The position numbers and the translations under genes were made by a program. Source: Tetrapyrgos nigripes (lineage: Eukaryota; Basidiomycota; Agaricomycetes; Agaricales; Campanellaceae). From it: 64,000 bases of DNA. How positions within the stretch are numbered: position 1 is the stretch's first letter; every line of letters begins with the position of its first letter. The DNA lies in assembly GCA_013368315.1 (NCBI GenBank), contig JAACJM010000118.1, positions 62,001 to 126,000 of the forward strand, in the 5' to 3' direction. Below, in pieces: positions 4,752 to 64,000 of this stretch. The notes beneath the pieces were generated by a model. It ran no database searches and had not been told where the DNA came from. It saw only the letters and a program-made list of their open reading frames with translations.

Positions 4752-6371
4752 TTAGTGAGGGAATGCGATTGATGAATGATGACAGAAGTTCGAGTTCGAT
4801 TGCCGAGTGGGGTGCGAAGGAGGGCATAGAATACCAACGGTCCGCAATAGTGTTTCTCCTCGGAGTTGCTCTTTCGCTTGAAGCACACGGGTACTTCGCC
4901 ATATGTCTTCCATGGCGATTCCTAGTGAACACACCGTTGTTCCAGGGCGTATCAGGTTCTTGGGTCGATATGCATCTGGATGTTGTTGATGGAAGGTTTC
5001 AATCATCTCCTTCACCTTCATTAATCCTGACGCTGGTTCCCATGAATTTTCCGAGTCAGCGTAATCCAACCATTTGACAAGGTATTGTACTCCCCGGCGG
5101 TTTCTCGTTGGTTTTGAATCTAGAATTGCTTCCACATCGTATTCGTTGTCTTCGGGAAGTAACTCAGCCGGTTCTCCTGGATAGTTCACTCCGTGGGCTT
5201 TGGTCTCTTTGTACGGCGATAGGAGTGAAGCGTGGAATACTGGATGAATGCGCCAACCATTCGGTAACTTGAGTCGGTAATTGACTTCACTGATAACGTC
5301 AGTGATTTCGAATGGTCCGTGACGATGATTTGCCAACTTAGCTTTCAGCCTCGTTGTCTTCAAGTTCTTTCCGTCTAGCAACACTTTGTCTCCAACTTTA
5401 AATTTCACCCCTTCCTCCGTGTAGTCCTTGTTTTGTTCTTTCATTAGTTCTGCTGCTGTCGCCAGACTTGCTTTTAGTTCTTCTCGAAGAGTATCCAAGT
5501 TCTGGAGGCGTTCTTTGACTTTTGGTACATGTGAAGTCGGATTGATGGAAGGGAAGAGTCGGGGTAGATATCCATGGAGTAGTTCGAATGGTGACTTTCC
5601 AGTTGCTGAGTGAATTCAGGTATTGTGACAGAATTTGGCGTAGGGTAGGTATTTAACCCAATCGTCCTGACGATAGTTACAGAAGGTTCGAAGATATTGT
5701 TCAAGTTCTTGATTGAACCTTTCTGTCTCGCCATCTGTCTGCAGATGATAAGCTGTACTGAGTGTTGAAGTAATACCTAACTTAGCGTAGATCCCTTTCA
5801 TTACTTGGCTTGCGAATTGTGGTCCACGGTCAGATATCATTTTATCCCACAAGCCATACCGTTGCCAAGTGTTGTCGAACAATAGGTCAATTGTTCCATT
5901 GCTGTCGATATCTTTTCTGCATGGGGAAATGACAACTGTTTTTGTTGAACAGTCGACTGCGACATGAATTGCATTGAAGCTGTCACATTCTGGCAGATCC
6001 GTGATGAAGTCGGTTGTAATGGTACCAAAGGGTCGTACCGGGATTTCGTTCGGGATTAATGGTACATGCATCGGGTGGTTATTTGCCTTGGTTAACTGAC
6101 AGGTAGCGCATCCTTCAACATAGTTACGAACAAATACTGACATACCGGGCCACCAGAATTCTCTACTGACGAGTTCGTAGGTTTTGAATCGTCCTGGATG
6201 TCCTGCAGTAAGGCTATCGTGATGCATTTTAACGATGTCTCGTCTGAGTTGTTGATCATTTGGGATGTAGATCTTCCCTCTGAACAAGACGATTCCATCT
6301 TCATAGTTCCATTCCTGTAGATTTTTTTGCCAAAGCGCGTGGTCCATTGTTAAAGATGGTTTGTAACGCAC
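4752..6371 (-). pseudogene. Gypsy integrase and chromodomain (pol 3' part, interrupted)
   Basis: Minus-strand frame 6371-5616 has the integrase zinc-binding region (HHDSLTAGHPG ... GCATCQLTK) and the catalytic core: TDFITDLP, then SDRGPQF, then HLQTDGETERFNQ, giving the D, D and E positions. The frame ends in TGA at 5616-5618, where Arg is expected before IHSATGKSPFE. The downstream frame 5498-4752 continues the integrase C-terminal region and ends with a chromodomain (YLVKWLDYADSENSWEPASGL). This marks a chromovirus, whose integrase can be targeted to modified chromatin. The link to RNase H needs a frameshift near a T/A homopolymer at about 6320-6330. Confidence 0.85.
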
Positions 6372-8337
6372 TTATGACTTCAGCATCCCTTTTCGGACAT
6401 TCCTTGATCCGTCTTTTCAACTCTGCATCTCCTATTGCGGTTACCGTTCCTGGCCGTGTCGCTCGAATTCTGAAGAATCTGGGGTCAAGTAAGACCCTGT
6501 CTTTGTTGTCGTTTTCGACCCCCTCTTTATGGTCTGATCTCTGAGAGAGTGGATCACTTTGGTTCAGGTTCCCAGGTTTGTGTGTGAGTGTAAAGTCGAA
6601 TCTGGTCAGAAACAAGGCCATTCTCGCTTGTCATCGGCTGAGTTTCTGGGCAGTGGTGAAGTATCTAAGGTTGTCGTGATCGGTCAAGATTTCGATGGTA
6701 TGTGGTCCGCCTTCCAGGTAGTGTCGCCAGGCTTCAAGTCCACGTATGATCGCTAGTAGTTCTTTATCGTGAATGTTGTAATTCCGTTCCATTTCGGATA
6801 AGGCCTTTGACAAGTAGGCTACTGGATGCCATTTACCGTCCGATCCTTGTTGTTGCAGGATGCCTCCTGTGGCGTAATCTGATGCATCAACTTCTACTCG
6901 GTATGGTTTAGAATGATCAGGCATGAGAAGGACTGGTGAAGTTGTGAACGTATCTTTGAGTGCTTGGAAAGCCGTCTGAGCTTCCTCAGACCATTCCCGT
7001 GGGTGTTCCTTTTTCGTGAGATCGAACAATGGTCATGCAATCTTTGAGAAATCACGTATGAAACGACGGTAAAAGTTTCTGAAGCCGAGGAATGACTGTA
7101 CGTCTTTGACGTTGCGTGGGATTGGCCATTTGGTCACGCCCTCGACCTTGACTGGATCCATCGCCAATGTGTTGTGTGAGACGATAAGGCCGAGGAACTC
7201 CACTGAATCGGTTTCGAAGGTGCATTTCTCCGGTTTAGCGTACAAATCGTTATCATGAAGTCGTGCCAATACTTGTTTCACCATGTATCGATGTTCTTCT
7301 AGTGATTCTGTGAATATGAGAATGTCGTCCATATAGATCACGACTTTTCCAGAGTCGATCAGGTCCTTGAATAGAGTGTTCATCATCGCTTGGAATGTAG
7401 CTGGAGAGTTCATAAGACCAAAAAACGTCACCGTTGGTTCGAAGAGGCCGCGGTTGGTTTTAAACGCCGCTTTCCATTCATCTCCCTTCTTGATACGTAC
7501 ATTGTTGTATCCCCATCTAAGGTCAATTTTGGAGAATATACGCGCCCCTTTTAGTTTGTCTACGAGTTCCGATATAAGCGGTAGGGGGTATTCGTTTTTA
7601 ACGGTCCCTTTGTTTAGGGCACGATAGTCCTGTACTGGTCATAGTTTTCTGTCTTTCTTTTTTACAAAGAAGAAGGGACTTGCCATAGGGGACTTCGACG
7701 GTCTTATATATCCTTTCTCTAAGTTTTCCTTGATAAATTCATCGAGTTCCTTCTGTTCGTTTGGGGATAGAGGGTACGTTTTGCAGGGGCGTGGTTCAAA
7801 GTCTGGTTTTAATTCGATAGCATGATCCCACTCGCCACGTTTTGGTAATCGTTCTGAGGTTTGTTTGTCAAAGACTCGTAGGAACTGATGATATTGCAAA
7901 GGAATCTTATCTTTAAGAGGTACCTCGACCTGGGCGTTCTGAGCTGCCTCTGCGAGTTCTTGTGCTTTTGTGAACCCTGCGCGGATGTTCAGGTTTGGTG
8001 TCTCTTCATCTATTCTTTCTTCCTTCCCCAACAATTCCTCCATTACGTCCTGTTCCCATTGTTCTGGGATTGTATCTCTTCCGTAATCGTCTTCAGTAAA
8101 GATTGCCATTGCCTCCAAACTTCGGTGGAAGGATCGAATAGGAGTTCGACGGCGTCGTCCTGCAGTCTTTGGTTGGGTGACTGGTTTGAATTGTCCGACT
8201 GGTTCTAACCATCTGACTTGGTACTCTTTGTGGTGGGTTCTTGGATCGACGACTGTGGGTTTCAAGGGTTTAGTTTTCAAGTGGAGAACGGGAGGTTTTG
8301 CCGTGATGCATGTTTCTGGGCATCTAGTCATGTCCAT
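6301..8337 (-). pseudogene. Gypsy reverse transcriptase and RNase H (pol middle part, three stops)
   Basis: One minus-strand frame (stops at 7639, 7033 and 6631, each TGA) carries the linker (TRCPETC), reverse transcriptase (FFVKKKD, SKIDLRWGYNN, FGLMNSPATFQAMM, catalytic YMDDIL at about 7325-7340) and RNase H (EVDASDYATGGIL, KELLAI, TDHDNL). The three stops fall where Arg is normally found (after DRKL, FSKIA and LSR) and are explained by CGA to TGA. Without them the frame would be continuous. It encodes the polyprotein that copies the element RNA into DNA, now inactivated. Confidence 0.88.
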
Positions 8338-50883: not shown

Positions 50884-53800
50884 TTAGTCATTAGACAAAG
50901 CATTACGACCGCCAAAAAGCCCTCTTAACCCGGTTTTCCGAATACGGAAGAAATATGTCAACGCGAAGACAGCTACCACCTGCATACCAAGTACAATGAC
51001 TTCATAATTGAAATAATGCGATGAAAAAACCTCAAGACGTACGTTAAACACCACATATCCCCACACCACACCCAGGTCTCTCCAATGATGTGAGTACTGC
51101 ACGTTCAAGTTGGCAGCAAGGAACTCGTCCGTCGTACGTGCCGCACAGTACAAACAGCTTGAATCATCACTGGAGTCTGCCAAATAGCCACCGGCGTTCT
51201 GAATGAAAGGATCAAGATATTGATGACATGACATCCCGGAGGGAGGTATGATAGGAACTAGTTCGACCGATGAGCAGGTAAGCTCAGCGTGGCCAACAGC
51301 TGTATAGAGATGTAACAGCAGGGCGAAGATCCGCATTAGTATTTGATAGAAATATAATAAAGGTCATGCATACCTTGTCCTGCAAATCCCTCGACGAGAT
51401 AAGTGAAGGGGTTGACGCGATACATCCACTTCCACCATCCAAGCCTACGGTAAGGCTGGATGATGCCAGTGCTATTTCGGATAGCCCATCAGTCAGTCAT
51501 TCGTACGGGGGGAAAGGGGAAGCCTACAAAGTGACCGCAAAGGTGAAAAGCCCAAAATAGAGTAACGATGCTATAAGTGAACTAGGAGCCATGGCCGCCA
51601 GTGAGAGGACTTTAATTTCAAATTTCAGAGCAATCAGTAAGGCAGGTAAGTCTGCGGATGTATAATGACCCACCGAAACTCGTATAGAAGAAAGGGAACG
51701 TAAAGCCCATCATCAAGTACGAATAACCTGCACGGTCTGTTGGAAAGCCGACGATCCAATACCAGATGACGAAGAAAACAGAGGACCCAATGACGTTGAA
51801 GACGGTTTCAGCTATAAGCTGAGCAGTAGTCAGAGCTGTCCAACTGTAAACGCGACTGGCACGCTCTCGCAGCTCGTATATACTGCGAGTCTGGATGAAA
51901 GGGATGTGGATCTGATCGCCGATGGGGGCAGAGAGGATGAAAGCCATGAACGTGGCCTGTATAATAGGGCGTCAATGAAGACTGCAGAAACCTATGACCA
52001 TGAGGCACTCACAAACACTTTGTTCTGCGTTCCCTGCAACGTATCCTTGGCCTGGAAAAACGTGAAACCCATAAACACTCCTCCAATGATATTCAACATG
52101 AGTTTGTTCATCAGATATATCGGGTCTCTCCAATGTCGTTGAAAGTCCCTCTTGAGAAGAGTCGTCATTTGGGTGTACCAACTACTCGCAAACTCTCCGC
52201 TGTTGAGTCGTCGTCCTTGGTTGCCCTCGCCATTCGAGTCCTTTCGTCCGTTTCCCAAAATGAGATCAAGTTCCTGATCGAGTTCTTTGGATTCCGGTGA
52301 GTTGGCCCATACTTTGTTCCAATCAGTGACTGCGTTGGTGTTACTGTGTCCCGCCGCCCCAATGACATCAAGCATGTACTCGGCACTAGAGAACAGAGGT
52401 CCATTAGTAAGCCCATGGATTGAAAGGTCTGACTTACGGATTGGCTTCCGCGGGACAAGGCCTAGCTCCGTTGCTCTCGAAATAGCTAATAAGAGACCGG
52501 CCATGAGGTCCTAGTTCTCCTTGATACACAGTCTGTCCCCCGCTCTTCAGAAGAAGTATCCTGTCAAACATGTTGAACAGTTCGGCCGAGGGTTGGTGAA
52601 TGCTATAAACTCATCAGTCAGTCTCAAGTCAAGAGTAGGCAGATGCCAGGTATGATGGTACTCACGTACAAAGCACCGCCTGCCCTTCCTGTGCCAACTC
52701 TTTCAAAAACGTCACAATGGCCCAAGCACTCTGCGAATCCAATCCAGTCGTCGGCTCATCAAGGAATAAAAGCAACTCGGGCTTGGCAGCGAGCTCAACG
52801 GCAATAGTCGTCCGCTTGCTGTACTCCAAATTGAGAGACCCGACGATAGCATGCTCATAATTCTCTAATCCACACATGCGAAGGACGGTGTCGATGCTGT
52901 TGATGGAAGGTGTCAGATATGAATGAGTGAGGATGAGGCCAGTGAAGATTAGGATGGGAGACTCACTACGCCTCTTTCTCCTCTGCAGGGACATGTTTCG
53001 GTTGGCGAAGTTTGGCTGAGAAGGATAGAGCCTCACGGACTACGAAGAACCCATCAGTTCCAGATTAAGATCCAGTCTAGATAATACCCACCAGTACACG
53101 TAGGCAAATGAACATCCAACTGTTGACAATACCCCGTCTGGGCTTGGAAATCCATAGGCAACGCCTTGCCATCAACGAAAACATCCCCCGAAACTACTCC
53201 AACTGAGACACGTTGAGCGAGTGCGTTGAGTAGAGTAGTTTTACCAGCCCCACTTGCACCCATGAGAGCTGTGAGTTTTCCGGGAGCGACATATCCTGAG
53301 ACGTCATCTAAGAGTCTGCGAGTGGTACCCCCCGCGATGGGGACGTCGTAGGTGAGGTGGTGCCAGGTGAAGATTTTTCTGGGTTGACTTTGGGTACTGG
53401 GATCGGTAGTGCTAGCGGGCTTCGTAATGGTGGTATCAGCTGCGTCACCCCCAGCTGCCGACGAGTCTTTCTCCGATACACCTGCTTCCTCGTCGTTGAT
53501 TTTTTTGTTGGTAAGAAGGGGTGAGACACCAGAGGAAGTCCGAGCGAAGTAGGTGACCTCCATCTGCGTCGCAATCCAGGTGTTGACTTCAGTGAAAAGG
53601 AGTAGGAGGAGTAGGAAGAAGACCCCGTAGGCGAAGACGATACCGAGGTTCTATAGATACAGGTTTTAGTGTATGCCATGAATGAACGATGTGACACTCA
53701 CTCTCCAAGCATTCGCATACTTATACTGATAACTCAACGCGATGTAAGCGTTCCCATCCACCGTACTCTGCCCAGGAACTTTCCCAACCGTCGCACAAGC

Positions 53801-56273
53801 CTGGTTTGCCAGAGAAACGTTGGGGTTATCCGAGTATCCAGGACCAGAGGGAACAAGATTAGAGCAAGTTGCATTGAGGGTATGGAACTCGTTGGCCATG
53901 AGGATCTCGAAACCCCAACGACTTGGCTGTGTGAAAGAGAGGGTAAGCACCAGAGAAAGGGAAAAAGGAGAGAAAGGCGTACGTTAAGATAAGTTATCCA
54001 CCTCAACCCCCCGATCATACTCGGTCTTGGCAACGCAAACCCGGTATACAAGACCAACGCCAGCAACGCAACACCTGCCAACGTCTGCGCTGGAGCTGGA
54101 GACCCCACAGCTGCGCTCAGACTCCTCACAAACACTTCATCGTTATCGCCAATGCGAAAAGGGTGACGAAGAACGTGAAGAATTGGGCAGCAGTGGTTTG
54201 GAGACCGACCATAAAGTAAATGATAATGCTGTAGACGAGGGTGGTGAAGAAGGAGATGGGGATGTCAACCAGCGTTTGGGAGAGGGCCTCAAGGAAGGGG
54301 AGGTAGAGGGCGCTGCGGTATTGGCGGATGACGATGGGGCGTTGAGAGAAGAGGATGGGAATTTCAGACATGGCGGAAAGGGTGAGGAAGAGAACAGTGC
54401 TGTAAATAAGAAAGTTGGGACGGAGGCGAGTCAGAAGAGGAAAGAATAAGGGATAGGGAAAGACAACGGTCAGTAAGTGAGGAAGTCAGGGGCGAAAATG
54501 AGGACGACATACTAAAAAATAGCGCCAGCTCTAGAGAAATACGCATCGGTGGATTCTGGAGAATTGTAAAAGACGGTGCCAAGGACGATACCAAAAATGA
54601 CAAAGGAGCTTCCATGAGATGTACGTCAGATACTAGAGCATTGTATAAAAGGCAGTTTAAAAAGACTCACGCAAAAATCATAAACTGGTCCCCAATGCTC
54701 CCCCTCAAAATCTGCACTCTCCTCTTCATCAACGCAAGGAGCTGAGCCCACATTGATACCGTAAACGGACTTGTCTTTGGAAGAGAGCGAGATTTCTCTT
54801 GAGCAATACTCTCCATGTACCGGGCTTTGAGCTCCTGGGCTTTCCGCGAAGTTGAGTTCCCTTCCGTCAATACATGCGTCGATGACTTTGGCGATACCGT
54901 TCCTAAGATTTCCCGATGATATTTCTCCATTTCCTCACGGTTTACCCTGCCCAGTTCACTCTTCAAGAACCTTTCAGCGAATTCGGCGGGGGTACGAGGT
55001 GCAGAGGACTCAAAACCCTTGCGAACAATTCTCTCCTTTGGATCCGTCACTGTAAGAACCAAGGCATTAGCGGTGCTGCTGGACAACGCACAAATCAATC
55101 CAACTCACCACTAACCAAGAAATCCCCAACCGTTTGCCCCTGAGTAGCCCTCTCGAACCCCAACTCTTCAAAATACGCCCTAGCCCTATGTGCCGGTCCA
55201 AAATAAACCATCCGCCCCTCATACAAAACACACGTCTTATCAAACACATCATAAAGCGCATCACTAGCCTGATAAAGCGCCATAATCGTCGTCAACCTCC
55301 CGTCATCCTGATTCGGTAACGACGTCGCCGTTCGAAAATGTTGGAGCAACTCCAACGCAGTAGACGAATCCAATCCCCGTGTCGTATTATCCCAACACCC
55401 CAAAACCGAACGAACAGCCAACATTTCTCCGACACTGACTCGTTTTTTCTCTCCACCGCTGACGCCGCGCAAGGCTTCGTTCCCGACGACAGTGTTGCGA
55501 GTATGGGACAACCCAAGCATGTTTTGCAATACATCGACGAATTGGTTGCGGAATTTTTGAGGAGTGGGACATTCACCAAGGGTTCGTGGGGTGCGAGTCG
55601 TTGCGGCGAAGGACAAAGTTTGCTGGACGGTGAGAGTGGGGAAGTGGATGTCGTCTTCGGGGCAGTAAGTGACGTCTCCACGGAAATGGGAAGAGATTTC
55701 AGAGGGAACGAATGGGCCGAGATGGATTGATCCTTCTACTGAGGAGAAGGAGTGGTGTGGCAGGAGAGAGTCTTGAGGAAGGTGGAACAGCCTGCAGATG
55801 GGCGGCCGAGGACGACTAGAGAAACAATTAGCAGTGTTGCGAGGAATTGAGAAGATGAAGGACGCACGTAGCATCTCCCCAGGCCACACCACACCCTCAA
55901 ACCCTCCAATATCCTCTTCCTGGGCGGCCGCAAGAACTCATTGAGAAAGTCGTAAATATGTCGTGGATTGAAGAACGACTCAAAGGTAAGATGGTACGAC
56001 GCAGATGAACCGGAACCAACGACGTTGAGATTCGAAAAGAGCACTCCAAGCTCACGTGGAGTTATTCCCGAATTTTGGCGGCTGAGACATGATGTCAGAT
56101 CCAAAAAATAAATTCGGCTGCATCACGCACCCTCGAAGAAAATCCTGGAAAGACGTTTCAAAATCGAAACTCGAGCTATCCTTTTCCATGGGTCGTACGT
56201 AGAAAGGTGAGAAGAGGTCAGGATGCAGAGGCAATTGCCCGAGTTCATGACTTTTAGACGACACATAATTCAC
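50884..56273 (-). CDS. PDR-type (ABCG) ABC transporter, apparently frameshifted
   Basis: Multi-exon minus-strand gene starting [13 protein letters not shown] (56273) and ending RNALSND (stop 50884). NBD1 has [15 protein letters not shown] (the usual fungal PDR Walker A with Cys replacing Lys), [31 protein letters not shown] and [10 protein letters not shown]. The first membrane domain follows ([36 protein letters not shown]). NBD2 has [14 protein letters not shown] and [15 protein letters not shown], then the second membrane domain and the Cys-rich end. This full-size (NBD-TMD)2 exporter would act in the plasma membrane on hydrophobic small molecules. Three places need a 1-nt shift to keep conserved frame: about 55905 (ILEG to [10 protein letters not shown]), about 55765 (FLKTL to VEGSIHL) and about 54135 (AITM to FVRSL). 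It may be a pseudogene or contain assembly indels. Confidence 0.85.
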
Positions 56274-57392: not shown

Positions 57393-57589
57393 GGACCACC
57401 ACTGCGTGTGGCAATGACGAGGCCCAAAGGAGTAACGAGCGCTAAACGAGCGTACCGGCTTCTATCAAATTCCCCAAATTCCGAGCCGGAAATTAGTAAG
57501 AAAATCTCGAGAAAAGCGTATATCCAAATTGCATAGTCACACGCGGAAGCCTCAGATTATAAGAACGAGTCCCTAAAGGGCCTCGTAAC
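57393..57589. mobile_element. Short non-autonomous element, TTACGAGGCCC family (197 bp)
   Basis: One end reads GGACCACCACTGCGTGTGGC followed by AATGACGAGGCCCAAAGG (57393-57430). The other end reads GAGTCCCTAAAGGGCCTCGTAAC (57567-57589). The interior block CCGAGCCGGAAATTAGTAAG is shared with 19518 and, inverted, with 61575. No coding capacity. 57600-58260 beyond it holds no gene. Confidence 0.7.
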
Positions 57590-58260
57590 CATGGACAGCA
57601 TACTTTGATCATATAGTTCCGTATTACAAGCTTCACCCGTCTACGCCGGGGCACTAGTACCAGATCGAATTCACCTAGCGAATCCACCATCGCCATCACC
57701 CTCCCAAAAAAGTTGCACGCAGATAAAACAACTGATCCGATTCTCAACGTTAAATCCATTAATCAGGCAACAACTCCAAATTCCATAAAATGTCCACGCC
57801 TGCTTGGGTACGACTACGGAAGTATTGTTGGCGCTGGCCTGGATGAGTTAATGTCTGATATGATTGCATCCTACTCGTGTTACTTTTTATGCACTTTCAT
57901 CGATTCTGTACGCAGCAACGGTTACTTATCAGCTCGGGGTAATCCAGAGTAAAAGGTTCCAGCAGTTTGATTTGACTGATTGTTGATCAAAGAGAAGGAA
58001 GTACTGTTTGAATGACGACGATATTACTTGCAATATGCCGTGGGTGAAGTGATATCTTTGCTACTTCGACCCAGTGAGTCATACGAGAATCGAACGAACT
58101 AGGAAACCTACAGAATCAAAGATATCTTTTATCTGTAATAAATAGTGAAAGGTACAGAGAATTTCGGCATATTCAAGGCCCGAGGGCTACATACATAGAA
58201 GGAATCGAACCAGCCTATCATCATGATCAAGAACAAGAACCTGAGCGACTCAGACGTCGT

Positions 58261-60208
58261 TAATTCAACCAAACTTCAGGCGAAAAGTAGCTCGTCAACT
58301 CCCAATCATGTTTCTTCATTGCGAATGTCAAGTAAGTTTGAATAGCTTTGCCCGGGGTATCAAGAGGCCTATGAGAACTGTAGGTTTTGTTTGAGAGGCG
58401 AACGTTCCAGTAACCAAGTTGAATTACTTACTAGGCTTTGGATACCTCTCGGACGAACCAACCTTCGGGGAGGTGTTCAGCCAGACCAATACGACGGTAG
58501 AATCGTTCGAGCGCTTCGCAAACACTCAAATCGTTTGTAGAGTATACACTACAGTAACCTCAGTTCAGTATGGCCTACAAGAACTCTAAAAACAGTAGAA
58601 CTCACCGGATCGGTAGGTAGACTTTGGGGAAGACCAAGTTCTGTCCGGGCACAAACTCGTAATAGTACAAAAGTCCACCGAGAGGATGAATATTCCTCTC
58701 AGCTTTCACAACATCTTCAGATCTCTTCAAGGGCTGTGAATGGTTCTCAACAGCATTCGGGAACATGGTATCCCAGAGGGTCTCCAAAACCTTGAGGGCC
58801 TTTTCCATTTCAGGCCCTTTGAGACGACCACCAAGAGTAAAACCACTCTTGGCATCATCCCAAGAAGTACCCTTCATAGTATGACAGTAGATCTACAGAA
58901 ACAAGTCAATGATAGTCACCCCACAGAAGAGAAACATTGAGATTCTTACTTTCAAACGATTCTTCAAAGGACTGAGACAGTCGGTAGCTACTATTTCGAA
59001 TACGGGGCGAAGCTCCTTGTCAACGCTGTTCATGTATTCCATCAAGAGATCGAACGGCTGGACGAGTGACGGATCAAGGTCTTGGGCCAATTTACGGAAG
59101 GGTGAAAGGTCGAAATCCCCCATGAACACAGGGCTCTGCGTGTTCAGTGGAGGAGAGGCCGGATCCCAAGGAGGAGCTCGGAAGGCAACATAGTACGCCT
59201 TCAAGACTATGGTACCCAATGAATTAAAGTCCATTCCTGAAAAGGCACTGAGTACAACGCTCGAAATATAAATCAGATCGCTTACCAAGCATGAAACGAC
59301 TTCCAGGAAGAACTTCTTCCCCGAGTTCCGCACTTTGAGAATCCTCGTCCTCAGGAAACATGAATTTTTCAATCTTTCGTCGCCAAAGCATTCCGTCGTC
59401 TTCAATCTTGACCATTCCGCCAAAGTTTCCGAGTGTGGAAACGTAATAATCAAGCATTCTTGCACCCTTATGAAATTGGCCCGTTTTTGGGTCTCTAGAG
59501 GTTCATATCCCAGATCAGAAAGAAGACGGAAGGCAAATAACGATGCAATCTTACCGAGGTTCAATCGCAAAGCGAACGTTGCGATTGGGTTTATCGCCAG
59601 ATGTAGCTTCCTTCAGATTAGAGCTTGGAATGATCCAGCTGGTCTCGATGGGACTGCCGTCGATAGTCATAATAGAAGGAGGCAAGGTGAAAGCATCTGG
59701 GCCCAAGAAGGGGACAACTCGTGCATATACGAAGAGAACATATGCGCATTGTATGGGAAGAGGATAATTCTGGAAAGACACGTAAGAAGATGAAACACCT
59801 CTACAAGAGCGTACTTGCCGATGTATCAAGCATCTGCGCAAAAGGTAAGACTACCTTTCGCCAATAGAAGTAGGTCTGTCCGGACTGGTCGCCTATGAGT
59901 ATCTGATAAAAGATATGAGGTTTGCAGATAGTGAAAATGTCATGAACGGGCTTACATCGGCCAGAGTATCGAATAGCTTTAAACCAGTCTTCTCCTTGCT
60001 AGGCGATGGCTTGATATCAGGAAGACTGCCTCCGTACAGGGCATGGGCGAGCGCTTTGACATTGTCCTCCAACGAGGCGTCTGATTTCCAGACAGACTTC
60101 AGGAGAGCTGCAAATCCCAAGGTAAATGCATGTTCAAATTCCGAATGAGTACAATGAGCACTGTTACTTACATTTGATTGGGGCTTCACTAGGTGCTGGA
60201 GGTGTCAT
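58261..60208 (-). CDS. DMATS-type aromatic (indole) prenyltransferase
   Basis: Multi-exon minus-strand gene. Exon 1 (60172-60208) is MTPPAPSEAPIK; exon 2 (59956-60107) continues SLLKSVWKSDASLEDNVKAL; next come ILIGDQSGQTYFYWRK and MLDTSAR. The core includes GPDAFTLPPSIMTIDGSPIE, NRNVRFAIEP, LKAYYVAFRAPPWD, then DAKSGFTLGGRLKGPE and HPLGGLLYYYEFVPGQ plus FPKVYLPIR, which are DMATS-family landmarks. The last exon after the intron near 58431 gives SHRPLDTPGKAIQTYLTFAM ... YFSPEVWLN and stop at 58261. Such soluble enzymes move a dimethylallyl or longer prenyl group onto tryptophan or related aromatics without the DDxxD motif. No frameshift noticed. It lies 1.7 kb from the isocyanide synthase gene on the same strand, suggesting a shared pathway. 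Confidence 0.88.
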
Positions 60209-60747
60209 AGCAAAGGAGAATAATTTCGTATGTGTGTTTCCGGATACTTGGCTTTTATTTTGGTCCGCCCTATGGAGTTCAAGTTTCAACAAAGAGAGAG
60301 CGGCAGCTAAAGAGTATAGGTACACCTGTAACTCGAACCGAGAGAGAACTTACCCTGATACAGGTACAGGTATGATATTGGTATGATATGTACCCGGGGT
60401 GGTAGTACGGTTGGGTACAGTGTGGAAAGCGTCCAACGGCAACCATCATCCTATGTCTGTAGATCGTACCATATTCAGCAGCTACTAAAACAATGAAAAG
60501 CGGGAGGTAAACAGGATAGGTGCTATATCCTACCTGGAATCAAGAACGGCAGCGAGAAGTATGAGCCTTCTAGTATGGGAAATCCCTCGCGTTTGTAACA
60601 CCATATCATTGATACTGTGACTACGCAATGCCCCGCCGGATCCTGAAGGGGCCACTTGGCGTCTATCTATCCATCTATCTAGAACTCAGAAGATCGAAAA
60701 TCTGGGGTACAGCGGCAACTATTCTATGTAGATCAGAAGATAGATAG

Positions 60748-60976
60748 ATTACGAGGCCCTTCAGGTATCGTTCTTATAATCTGAGGCTTTTGCGTGTGGC
60801 TAATGCAATTTGGATATACGGCATTTGCCTTCACGCCATGTGCCTTGCCTCCTTGACAGCCGCTCTTGTCCTCAATCAACCATCTTGCAACCATCATCAT
60901 CCTCGTGCCGATGAAGCTAAACAAAAATGTGCCAATCAAATAACGGCCTCGTTATTGCCACGCGAAGCGGTGGCCC
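60748..60976. mobile_element. Short non-autonomous element, TTACGAGGCCC family (229 bp)
   Basis: Starts ATTACGAGGCCCTTCAGG (60748-60765) and TTCTTATAATCTGAGGC, and ends CGGCCTCGTTATTGCCACGC then GAAGCGGTGGCCC (60944-60976). A separate inverted word CCTGAAGGGGCC at 60642-60653 and a CTATCTATC/GATAGATAG hairpin lie beside it. Confidence 0.65.
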
Positions 60977-61139
60977 AAAAAGCCTTCATAGATAGATATA
61001 CACAGCATGGTCTACGAACATGCCGGGTGTAGACGTTGTATAGTCCAGTAACAATGCTGATCGCAAAACGGTCCACCAATGTACTCGATTCATTGATGAT
61101 GGGTTGAAGGACTATCCTATGATAAAGTGGTCAAAATCA

Positions 61140-61260
61140 ATCGAACAGAATCAATCAAAATCAAGCAGAATTCACACTTTTCATCTCTCCCGAATTCACG
61201 CGTTCTCTCCTGAACTCACGCCTTTTGATATCTCCCGAACTCACTGAATCGAATAGAATT
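61140..61260 (+). repeat. Short degenerate tandem repeat (CTCCCGAAYTCACG)
   Basis: CTCCCGAATTCACGC, CTCCTGAACTCACGC and CTCCCGAACTCAC follow each other at 25-35 bp spacing, next to AATCAAAATCAA repeats. It lies in the intergenic region between the DMATS start and the isocyanide synthase end. The rest of 60209-61934 has no gene. Confidence 0.5.
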
Positions 61261-61482
61261 TCACAGTCCAACTGATTGACACCGGATGCAAACCCCTGTA
61301 AATCCTCTGCCATACAATGGATTTATTGGGGATTTATTTTGTGCCATTCAATAGACGGATGGTAATTCCTCATTGATTCCTCAGTAAGGCAAAGAATTGA
61401 CATAAACCAGATCGACTCTGTTTCGCAGCATGAATTGAAATCTTAGCTTTTTGTAGTGTTGGATTAATTGAAGACCTTGCTA

Positions 61483-61665
61483 GTTACGAGGCCCTTTAGG
61501 GACTCGTTCTTATAATCTGAGGCTTCTGCGTATGGCTATGCAATTTAGATTTTCTCCAGATTTTCTTACTAATTTCCGGCTCGGAATCTAATAGAAGTCG
61601 GTACCGAACATCCCTTTGGGCCTCGTCATTGCCACACACAGTGGTGGCCCACATCTCCTTCATTC
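61483..61665. mobile_element. Short non-autonomous element, TTACGAGGCCC family (inverted)
   Basis: Begins GTTACGAGGCCCTTTAGGGA and CTCGTTCTTATAATCTGAGG (61483-61522). It ends CCTTTGGGCCTCGTCATTGC then CACACACAGTGGTGGCCC (about 61613-61650). It is the near-complete reverse complement of the 57393-57589 element. Confidence 0.7.
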
Positions 61666-61934
61666 CTAGTGATCACGCCGAGAGGCTCCTTATATATTTT
61701 TTATCATTTCCATTGAAGGACACTATGTCCGTGCGCAGTCGGCACCTGTAACTGCGAATTGTCATAGGGGCCTTTACGGAGTCTCAGCAAATGCGACCAT
61801 CATGTCTTTAAATAAGAAAGACAGAATCCGTCCGAGGCAAATAAATACACGTTCCAGCATATGAAGAACTAACCAGAGTTCACGAAAACCAATAAAAAAC
61901 TTCAATAGACCTGAACAAAATGTTCAAGATCGAG

Positions 61935-64000
61935 TTAGTTAACGTGAATGCGCCACAACTCCCTGGGACCGGGCACGAAAGCAGTCCTTGAGTGCAGCAG
62001 CTGAAGCAATTTTTTAAATACCAGATCAAGATCAAAAGATGAGTTGGTAAGATACTTACTTCGACGTTATCCGCAATGAGGAAATCTCCCGTCGCCCAAG
62101 TATGAGCAAAGCAAAACCTGCGGTCATACAACAAGTTGGAGAGCAAATCAACAATCCTTGCTTCTTCTTCCTGTGTAGCATCACTGATCCCGACGTTAGT
62201 CGCTTTGAACTTCGTCACCCATTGCGGCCTGTTGATCGGCGATCAGACACCGCTCGCTGTCATATCAGCAAAAAGAACGTACCAAGGATCGTTCCATCGC
62301 AATACTTCATGACCAGTAAGCTCATTTTGCATGACCAAGGGGAGTTTGAGATGATCTCCTCCAAACACCGCGTTCTTGGGCGTGAACACCGTGAAGTCCT
62401 TGGACGAAAGTAGCTCTTTCTGCAAATGAGTCACTCCGTATCGCAGGATTTCAGCTGTATTCGTCAAAAGAGTTTGGCCACCTTCTTGGTTCCCTGGTGC
62501 CTGAATGCATTGAAAGACCTGGAACTGAGGAGAATCACTCGTCATTCGTCCATGTTCGTCGGTCTTAGTCTTGAAAAGACCTGCGAGAATTGGACGGAAT
62601 GAGTGAGCATAGAAAAAAAATACAAAGATGAGCACGTACCGTCGTAATGCATAGGCATCGCTTCGCATGTAAGTGTGCTATTTACGTCCCAGTTGGAGTT
62701 CTCTTTCAGCTCGAAAATAGCCCCATAAGCTGGCCAGCGCCTAAATCGACAGTCAGAACGACTTTGAAATGAGACCTAGAGTATAAAAGCCCATACAGGA
62801 TTGGTCCTAGCTCTTCGGATTTCTTGATCATATCGTCACGATCAACCTGGGAGAATCCACGGAGGAGTACACAGGAGTGTACACCCAAGAGCGTACGCAG
62901 TTTGTTCATGGGTAGATCATTCAAGGACAGGCTGTCGGATGGTGAACAAGAGATGGTCAATCCGAATGGGAAGTTTCGAGTGAATGAAATCTGCGCGTCC
63001 AGTTGTGATCCAAATGAGTACACTGTGGACTTCTCGCGAATGTAATAAGGTCGGCCGTGTTTCAAAACAACCTCGTAATTCTTCTTGTCGAACGATTGGA
63101 GGGGACCGATTTGGAGGCGTCCGTCAGCAGCCTCGTATATGACGTTGTGCCACTGTCAAAGCATTTAATATATGCCTAAAAGATCAAGTACGAAAAAGGT
63201 ACTTACTGGTGTAGCGGACATTTTTGTACCCGGGAAGAGATTCAAAGCGAATTTCGGACCTTCGTTGGGATGCTCATGACAGCTTAAGCGGACACAAGAA
63301 GGGAATTTCGCTCGGACAAGATCGGAGAATTTCTTAACGGAAAGATCAGCTCTAAGTGTCGTGAGTTCATGCCAGAAGAACTCACAGTTCCGTGGACAAT
63401 CATCTTCTTGGCAAGCTGCCGACGGATTTTGTCCTTTTGCTTTCCGGAGAGCGGGTTCTCATTGGGATCCATCATCACGCTCGTTCCGTCTAGATCGAAT
63501 TCCAAGAACTTGAGGTATCCTCGGTAGGTTCTTAGTACCCCGGAATCATTTCTGATGCTGTCCTCGATATTGTAGCACGAAATATCGTGGGCAAGGAATT
63601 GAGAGCGGATTATGGGGGCGTAGCGAACGTACTCTTCCAGGGTCATCTCGTTCGAATCGACAGAGAGGACATCACCCTCAATCAAATCCGCAAGCCTCAC
63701 AAACGTGATGTGGTTCAGGTTGCTTTCTACGCACATTTTACGTAGCTCGGCATTGTAGAGGTAGACGCTGGCGTCATCCTGTTCAAGAAGTTCTAGCCTT
63801 AGACATCAGAAAATTGGATTTTCAAGAGTAAAAGTGATAGGAAAAGCCTCACCACCGTACACAATCCCGTCGCTTACTATGCGAACGACAGCACCGGGCG
63901 CATAATCGTCCTCGACGGCGGCAGCAAGGGCTTCGAGCCTATGGAGAAGGAGCTCTTCTCCCAGATCAGGAAGACGGCCAAGGACTTTTCGCGCACTAGG
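61935..64000 (-). CDS. Isocyanide synthase - TauD/TfdA dioxygenase fusion (5' end outside the window)
   Basis: Multi-exon minus-strand gene running off the window. Its N-terminal part is a DIT1/PvcA isocyanide synthase: RKVLGRLPDLGEELLLHRLE, PGAVVRIVSDGIVYG, DASVYLYNAELRKM, RTYRGYLKFLEFDL, SCHEHPNEGPKFALNLFPGT and SATP spliced to WHNVIYEAADGRLQIGP. A linker (VLKHGRPYYIREKS) leads to a TauD-type Fe(II)/2-oxoglutarate dioxygenase: LRTLLGVHSCVLLRGFSQ, MPMHYDG (HxD iron ligands), TLLTNTAEIL, and LLHSRTAF with the third His, then PGPRELWRIHVN and stop at 61935. In known pairs (PvcA/PvcB, IsnA/IsnB, AmbI1-3) the synthase turns the amino group of Tyr or Trp into an isonitrile and the dioxygenase oxidatively decarboxylates it. 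The fungal fusion order matches characterised ICS-TauD proteins. The substrate cannot be read from sequence. Confidence 0.9.

Follow-up and report, generated by a model that had tools for sequence, protein, structure and literature searches.

Do two biosynthetic genes lying side by side at one end of a 64,000-nucleotide stretch of the Tetrapyrgos nigripes genome (the window, positions 62001–126000 of contig C115 in an assembly totalling 98.46 Mb) belong to a single pathway, and if so, what would that pathway make? The first gene encodes an isocyanide synthase (ICS) fused to a TauD dioxygenase and the second a DMATS-type aromatic prenyltransferase, in a saprobic basidiomycete that has already been credited with 6 ICS clusters (PMC10153163). 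ICS proteins are reported to be very common in Ascomycota, and a 2018 survey recorded them in only four species of basidiomycetes (PMC5974471). Comparison of the sequences indicates that a conserved, Marasmius-type pathway to a prenylated isonitrile is probably present in several copies, one of them in the window, and that the complete loci have in addition a P450 and a rhodanese that could carry the product on to an isothiocyanate.

The ICS-TauD gene of the window yields an open spliced model of 660 amino acids with seven introns and no stops or frameshifts, its codons running from 64312 to 61938 with the stop ending at 61935, and the first 312 coding bases fall outside the window. Its exons, searched singly against Pfam, score 84.5, 60.4, and 46.5 bits for DIT1_PvcA (cut-off 26.4), and two further exon pieces score 21.0 and 26.8 bits for TauD, just under the cut-off of 27. 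The whole sister protein P0002 reaches 244.7 bits for DIT1_PvcA and 100.1 bits for TauD, its first part matching PvcA-type structures (3e59, 9dhm, 9dh4) and its second part PvcB/TauD structures (3eat, 7tcl). Aligned by way of P0002 with PvcB (3eat) and with a solved TauD enzyme (7tcl), the window model retains the whole iron site, H481-x-D483 and H642, together with R656, and so bears out an earlier note on this DNA, which had read a fusion with an intact HxD...H site from the letters alone.

The DMATS gene is likewise intact, encoding 501 amino acids with eight introns and no stops or frameshifts (codons 60208 to 58263, stop ending at 58260), and the same note was right to call it a complete-looking prenyltransferase gene that shares the strand of the ICS at a distance of 1.7 kb. 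The two are separate genes, which rules out an ICS-DMATS fusion or shared frame. An apparent frameshift at residue 92 was an artefact of allowing GT donors only, since the third intron (59818–59770) is of the GC-AG type in C115, C34, and C247 and its recognition removes the break in all three; in C2 and C51 this intron is GT-AG. The exons reach the Pfam cut-off for Trp_DMAT (PF11991), the protein has the ABBA fold, and the residues that bind dimethylallyl diphosphate (DMAPP) and the Glu89-type residue are kept as E133, R157, K245, and K328, with roles as assigned in PMC11443524. The description of the enzyme as an indole prenyltransferase finds no support in the active site, where the catalytic Lys174 of FgaPT2, the Trp C4 enzyme, is replaced by Met231, and Gln343 by Lys418; the Lys174 column was set by an ungapped count from a conserved Asp, at a place where the hidden Markov model alignment opens a 2-residue gap. 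The 4-O-dimethylallyl-L-tyrosine synthases combine Phe at the first of these positions with Lys at the second, and here the Lys is present and the Phe absent. Met occupies the Lys174 position in all seven T. nigripes copies and in the three aligned clade members from other species, and Phe occupies it in all 16 other aligned basidiomycete-type relatives, which lie outside the ICS-linked clade.

Among the closest solved structures by profile are DMATS1 and FunA/GliD1 (PDB 8day, 9iia), at about 20% identity, and NotF, and the closest by fold are DMATS1 and FunA; in the profile alignment DMATS1 has Phe and FunA has Met at the Lys174 position. This bears on the possibility that the prenyltransferase acts first, on free Tyr, Trp, or His, and that the ICS then takes the prenylated amino acid, an order of steps that deserves serious consideration without being the one we would expect. 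The best structural neighbors of the model of a DMATS orthologue are indeed free-amino-acid enzymes (DMATS1, whose solved structures contain Trp or Tyr, and FunA, which uses free histidine), and the Phe of the 16 relatives and of DMATS1 is the residue of the Tyr O-prenyltransferases. The Met of the ICS-linked clade would instead fit a changed substrate such as an isonitrile, but FunA combines Met with a free amino acid, and a single residue is weak either way. We set aside naming a substrate from the pocket, as this would turn on one position with an alignment gap adjoining it.

An exon-level search of the genome found seven ICS loci (C2, C34, C51, C115, C247, C281, and C446) and seven DMATS loci (C2, C34, C51, C115, C194, C201, and C247); these counts, like those of rhodanese, P450, and ABC transporter genes given below, take in only the best-scoring candidates and should be read as minimum values. 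The loci were assembled with no conflicts over 36,089 overlapping bases before spliced modeling, and in the resulting models a DMATS gene lies downstream of the ICS gene, on the same strand and at a distance of 0.9–1.7 kb, at five of the seven ICS loci (C115, C34, C247, C51, and C2). Random placement of seven and seven loci in the assembly would give about 0.005 ICS genes with a DMATS within 5 kb, an estimate that treats the copies as independent, which as paralogues they are not. All five ICS-adjacent DMATS genes are intact and neither of the two stray ones is, C201 being frameshifted and C194 interrupted, with first exons that lack similarity. C34 and C247 (98% identical) look like an allele pair, as do C281 and C446 (99.5%), and C2, C51, C115, and C34 differ from one another by 6–17% in their ICS and DMATS proteins.

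Both genes are under purifying selection. The ratio of nonsynonymous to synonymous substitution rates (dN/dS) is 0.11–0.24 among six ICS copies and 0.09–0.21 among five DMATS copies, with the frameshifted or broken C281 ICS, C201 DMATS, and C194 DMATS left out, and the C115 and C34 copies compared directly give 0.15 for ICS and 0.09 for DMATS, so that selection held for most of the history of the C115 genes. By blastn, the alignment of C34 with C115 is confined to the two coding regions and at most ~125 bp of adjoining sequence, at a synonymous divergence of ~0.6, yet gene order and orientation are kept, so that order is conserved where the rest is not.

The earlier note had proposed looking for conserved neighbors in other Agaricomycetes, and they are present: five named species return both an ICS (71 database matches) and a DMATS (25 matches), and all five have at least one pair on the same contig. 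Besides T. nigripes these are Marasmius oreades, in which ICS (E1B28_013477), DMATS (E1B28_013476), and a rhodanese (E1B28_013475) bear consecutive locus tags; Stygiomarasmius scandens (ICS VKT23_014709, DMATS VKT23_014708, rhodanese VKT23_014711); Collybiopsis luxurians, with all three genes on a 481,823-base contig; and Flagelloscypha sp. PMI_526, with ICS and DMATS on a 347,564-base contig. Collybiopsis confluens (P0005/P0100) returned a cluster-type ICS and rhodanese, on different contigs, and no DMATS, which may reflect either loss or an annotation gap.

The ICS alignment holds 32 of the 71 matches and the ICS tree 29 rows (23 matches and six of our own models, with Tn_ICS_C281 left out), and the DMATS alignment holds 21 of the 25 (P0075, P0093, P0094, and P0095 left out) and the DMATS tree 26 rows (20 matches and six of our own models, with Tn_DM_C194 left out). 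Wherever they are resolved, which the C51/C2 fork of the DMATS tree is not, the two trees agree on how the copies and species are ordered. The DMATS tree connects with a single, very long branch from Aspergillus, so that the pair shared with Flagelloscypha may have been assembled either once or repeatedly.

The complete loci are C34 and C247, each with a divergent P450, ICS, DMATS, and a two-domain rhodanese. Their P450 models have no stops or frame breaks, the rough guide sequence leaving the start codon and one exon boundary unsettled, and broken P450 relics lie near the ICS at C115 and C51. The rhodanese belongs to a small clade of five fungal orthologues at 62–99% identity, the next of the 103 matches standing at 36% and below, and the loop CGWGVT with the catalytic Cys is retained in every one of the five; nearest by sequence are the mercaptopyruvate sulfurtransferase 1urh and rhodanese. 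Close relatives in T. nigripes occur only at C34, C247, C51 (a relic), and C266 (a fragment), and a homologue on C15 is taken as a general enzyme. A rhodanese with its catalytic Cys therefore stands beside isonitrile genes at C34/C247 and, judged by tags or a shared contig, in M. oreades, C. luxurians, and S. scandens. By eye, similar membrane-protein-like frames are present on either side of the C34 cluster (L037/L038; ~275.7–276.9 and 292.8–294.0 kb), and a transporter-like frame lies at 289.7–291.3 kb.

Several observations weigh against a conserved pathway of this kind. No rhodanese was found anywhere on C115, C2 has none, and that of C51 is a relic only; the ICS loci C281 and C446 lack a DMATS, and the reading frame of the C281 ICS is broken close to its end; the same-contig pairs outside T. 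nigripes were judged from record data and locus tags, not from sequence. To these is added a rival account of the rhodanese itself, namely that it serves resistance or detoxification, against cyanide or excess isonitrile, and that the end product is a prenylated isonitrile or its formamide. Rhodaneses are known to scavenge cyanide (PMC12112954), and ICS and DMATS have both survived at the window locus and at C2, where there is no rhodanese, so that the two genes can evidently last without one. This protective role, which we regard as possible but rather doubtful, fits less well with a separate cluster-tied clade to which the C15 homologue is only 37–38% identical, and with five fungal orthologues that all come from species that also returned an ICS.

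As to the loci without DMATS, blastn similarity to C115 on C281 and C446 gives out 18–25 bp short of the DMATS start, and on C201 it is limited to the DMATS itself with 83 bp upstream and ~220 bp downstream. These ends nearly coincide on C115, at 122226–122291, which suggests that the C281/C446 ICS and the C201 DMATS are one pair split by rearrangement, and in view of this pattern we set aside treating them as independent orphan genes. That ICS and DMATS are merely unrelated neighbors is very improbable. ICS-only loci and the stray DMATS of C194 and C201 would suit such a reading, as would the many agarics that returned only one of the proteins (ICS alone in, for example, Infundibulicybe, Pluteus, Ramaria, and Sphaerobolus, and DMATS alone in, for example, Coprinopsis, Amanita, Termitomyces, and Hypsizygus, a missing match being no proof of absence), but the agreement of the two trees, the sharing of a contig by pairs from five genera, and the finding of intact DMATS genes only beside ICS all argue against it.

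The two-domain backbone enzyme, DIT1_PvcA plus TauD, is that of known fungal ICS-TauD (ICS-DOX) clusters such as xanB/icsB of A. fumigatus (PMC5974471, PMC10153163); the DMATS and rhodanese partners set the present loci apart, and the main text of PMC10153163 mentions neither prenyltransferases or DMAT nor rhodanese, sulfurtransferase, or isothiocyanate. The ICS and TauD reactions follow from the PvcA and PvcB families. The ICS domain would convert Tyr, Trp, or a similar aromatic amino acid, together with a C1 donor, to an N-isocyano acid, and the fused TauD domain would decarboxylate and desaturate this to a vinyl isonitrile. From the conserved ICS-DMATS pairing we infer that the vinyl isonitrile is then prenylated, with DMATS placing a dimethylallyl group onto the aromatic ring or its heteroatom. 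At C34/C247 the P450 would oxidize the product, and the rhodanese would pass sulfur to the isonitrile carbon to give an isothiocyanate. Since RhDE, a rhodanese of the Burkholderia sinapigladioside pathway, is reported to make an isothiocyanate from an isonitrile (as cited in PMC12112954), and a dedicated rhodanese lies beside the fungal ICS and prenyltransferase, these fungi may by analogy make prenylated isothiocyanates. In its general form, that Marasmius-type mushrooms make prenylated aromatic isothiocyanates through clustered ICS-TauD, DMATS, P450, and rhodanese enzymes, by a route independent of plant glucosinolates and parallel to that of Burkholderia, the proposal is a tentative one that falls a little short of being probable. 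A mustard-oil-like isothiocyanate from a rhodanese-bearing cluster would, if true, be new for fungi, and if the rhodanese acts on the isonitrile, the cluster would provide a genetically tractable fungal isothiocyanate pathway and would tell what these litter mushrooms make. The three consecutive genes of M. oreades make the question directly testable there. Among the papers listed in our literature searches, some of which showed only part of their matches, none describes a fungal ICS cluster with a prenyltransferase or a rhodanese. The set would also be a natural combination of prenylation with isonitrile chemistry outside cyanobacteria.

The parallel that the earlier note drew with hapalindole and ambiguine pathways is half right. 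The cyanobacterial hapalindole/ambiguine/welwitindolinone clusters (PMC4236562) contain IsnA/PvcA and IsnB/PvcB homologues, members of the same ICS and dioxygenase families as here, together with an aromatic prenyltransferase, and isonitriles as well as isothiocyanates occur among their compounds. They have separate genes (I1-I3) in place of a fusion, and their AmbP-type prenyltransferase is of another family, with a fold only distantly shared; the main text of that paper names neither rhodanese nor sulfurtransferase.

Within the prenylated-isonitrile pathway, the window locus would be a reduced form, with ICS-TauD and DMATS intact and neither a rhodanese nor an intact P450 found. Past position 64000, where the earlier note had suggested looking for P450s and a methyltransferase, among other genes, P450 sequence is present, but as a broken relic with several stops and frame breaks (C115:131,901–133,572, past the window edge), and a transposase-like frame (piece L028; DUF659 below cut-off) lies between it and the ICS. 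The methyltransferase-like frame found there (L029:3490–4257) has weak Pfam matches only and sits ~8 kb upstream of the ICS start, beyond both the transposase-like frame and the relic. The blastn comparison of C115 with its sister loci shows that C281 and C446 lack the ~0.9 kb insertion present in the ICS-DMATS gap of the window. The broken P450, the missing rhodanese, the insertion, and the transposase-like frame might be taken to mean that the window copy is becoming a pseudocluster and that the pathway runs from C34/C247 alone; we think this unlikely, as neither window gene is interrupted, both have the residues expected in their active sites, and both have the low dN/dS values against C34 given above.

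Table 1. Coordinates of the features described, in window positions unless C34 is named
Feature	Position	Strand	Size	Basis or remark
Two-domain isocyanide synthase-TauD dioxygenase gene	61935..64000 in window, coding start 64312	minus		spliced alignment to Collybiopsis luxurians P0003, Pfam exons
ICS-TauD introns	63852-63793, 63385-63333, 63206-63153, 62796-62741, 62639-62581, 62282-62229, 62059-62001	minus		
ICS-DMATS intergenic gap	60209..61934		1,726 bp	holds ~0.9 kb insertion 60737-61618
DMATS-type aromatic prenyltransferase gene	58260..60208	minus		spliced alignment to Marasmius oreades P0073, Trp_DMAT exons, active-site columns
PDR-type ABC transporter (minimum extent)	53054..55937	minus		Pfam ABC_tran, PDR_CDR, ABC2_membrane
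C34 P450, divergent, preceding ICS	about 285.6-287.6 kb			adjoins ICS, also at C247
C34 two-domain rhodanese, after DMATS	278,788-277,597		334 aa	also at C247

A repeated motif, TTACGAGGCCCTT...CTTATAATCTGAGGC, was seen by eye near 57530–57590, 60749–60808, and 61484–61537, with one copy reversed; two copies lie inside the insertion in the same orientation, and the motif may be part of a mobile element. The PDR-type ABC transporter, 2 kb downstream of the window DMATS, has counterparts 70–84% identical at 6–21 kb from the ICS of C2 (245–247 kb), C281 (64.6 kb), and C446 (25.7 kb), the 84% stretch being 6 kb upstream of the C2 ICS. Because copies also exist away from any ICS, at C2:135.8 kb (91%) and on C134, it is a candidate exporter only, of uncertain membership; P450 fragments accompany it at C281, C446, and C134. 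C2 was considered as a whole-cluster copy, with ICS, DMATS, and this transporter, and was rejected as it returned no match to the rhodanese or the C34-type P450. Elsewhere in the window, frames at 4755–7638 (C115:66755–69638) are 25–38% identical to C34:271.5–274.2 kb and are probably a retroelement.

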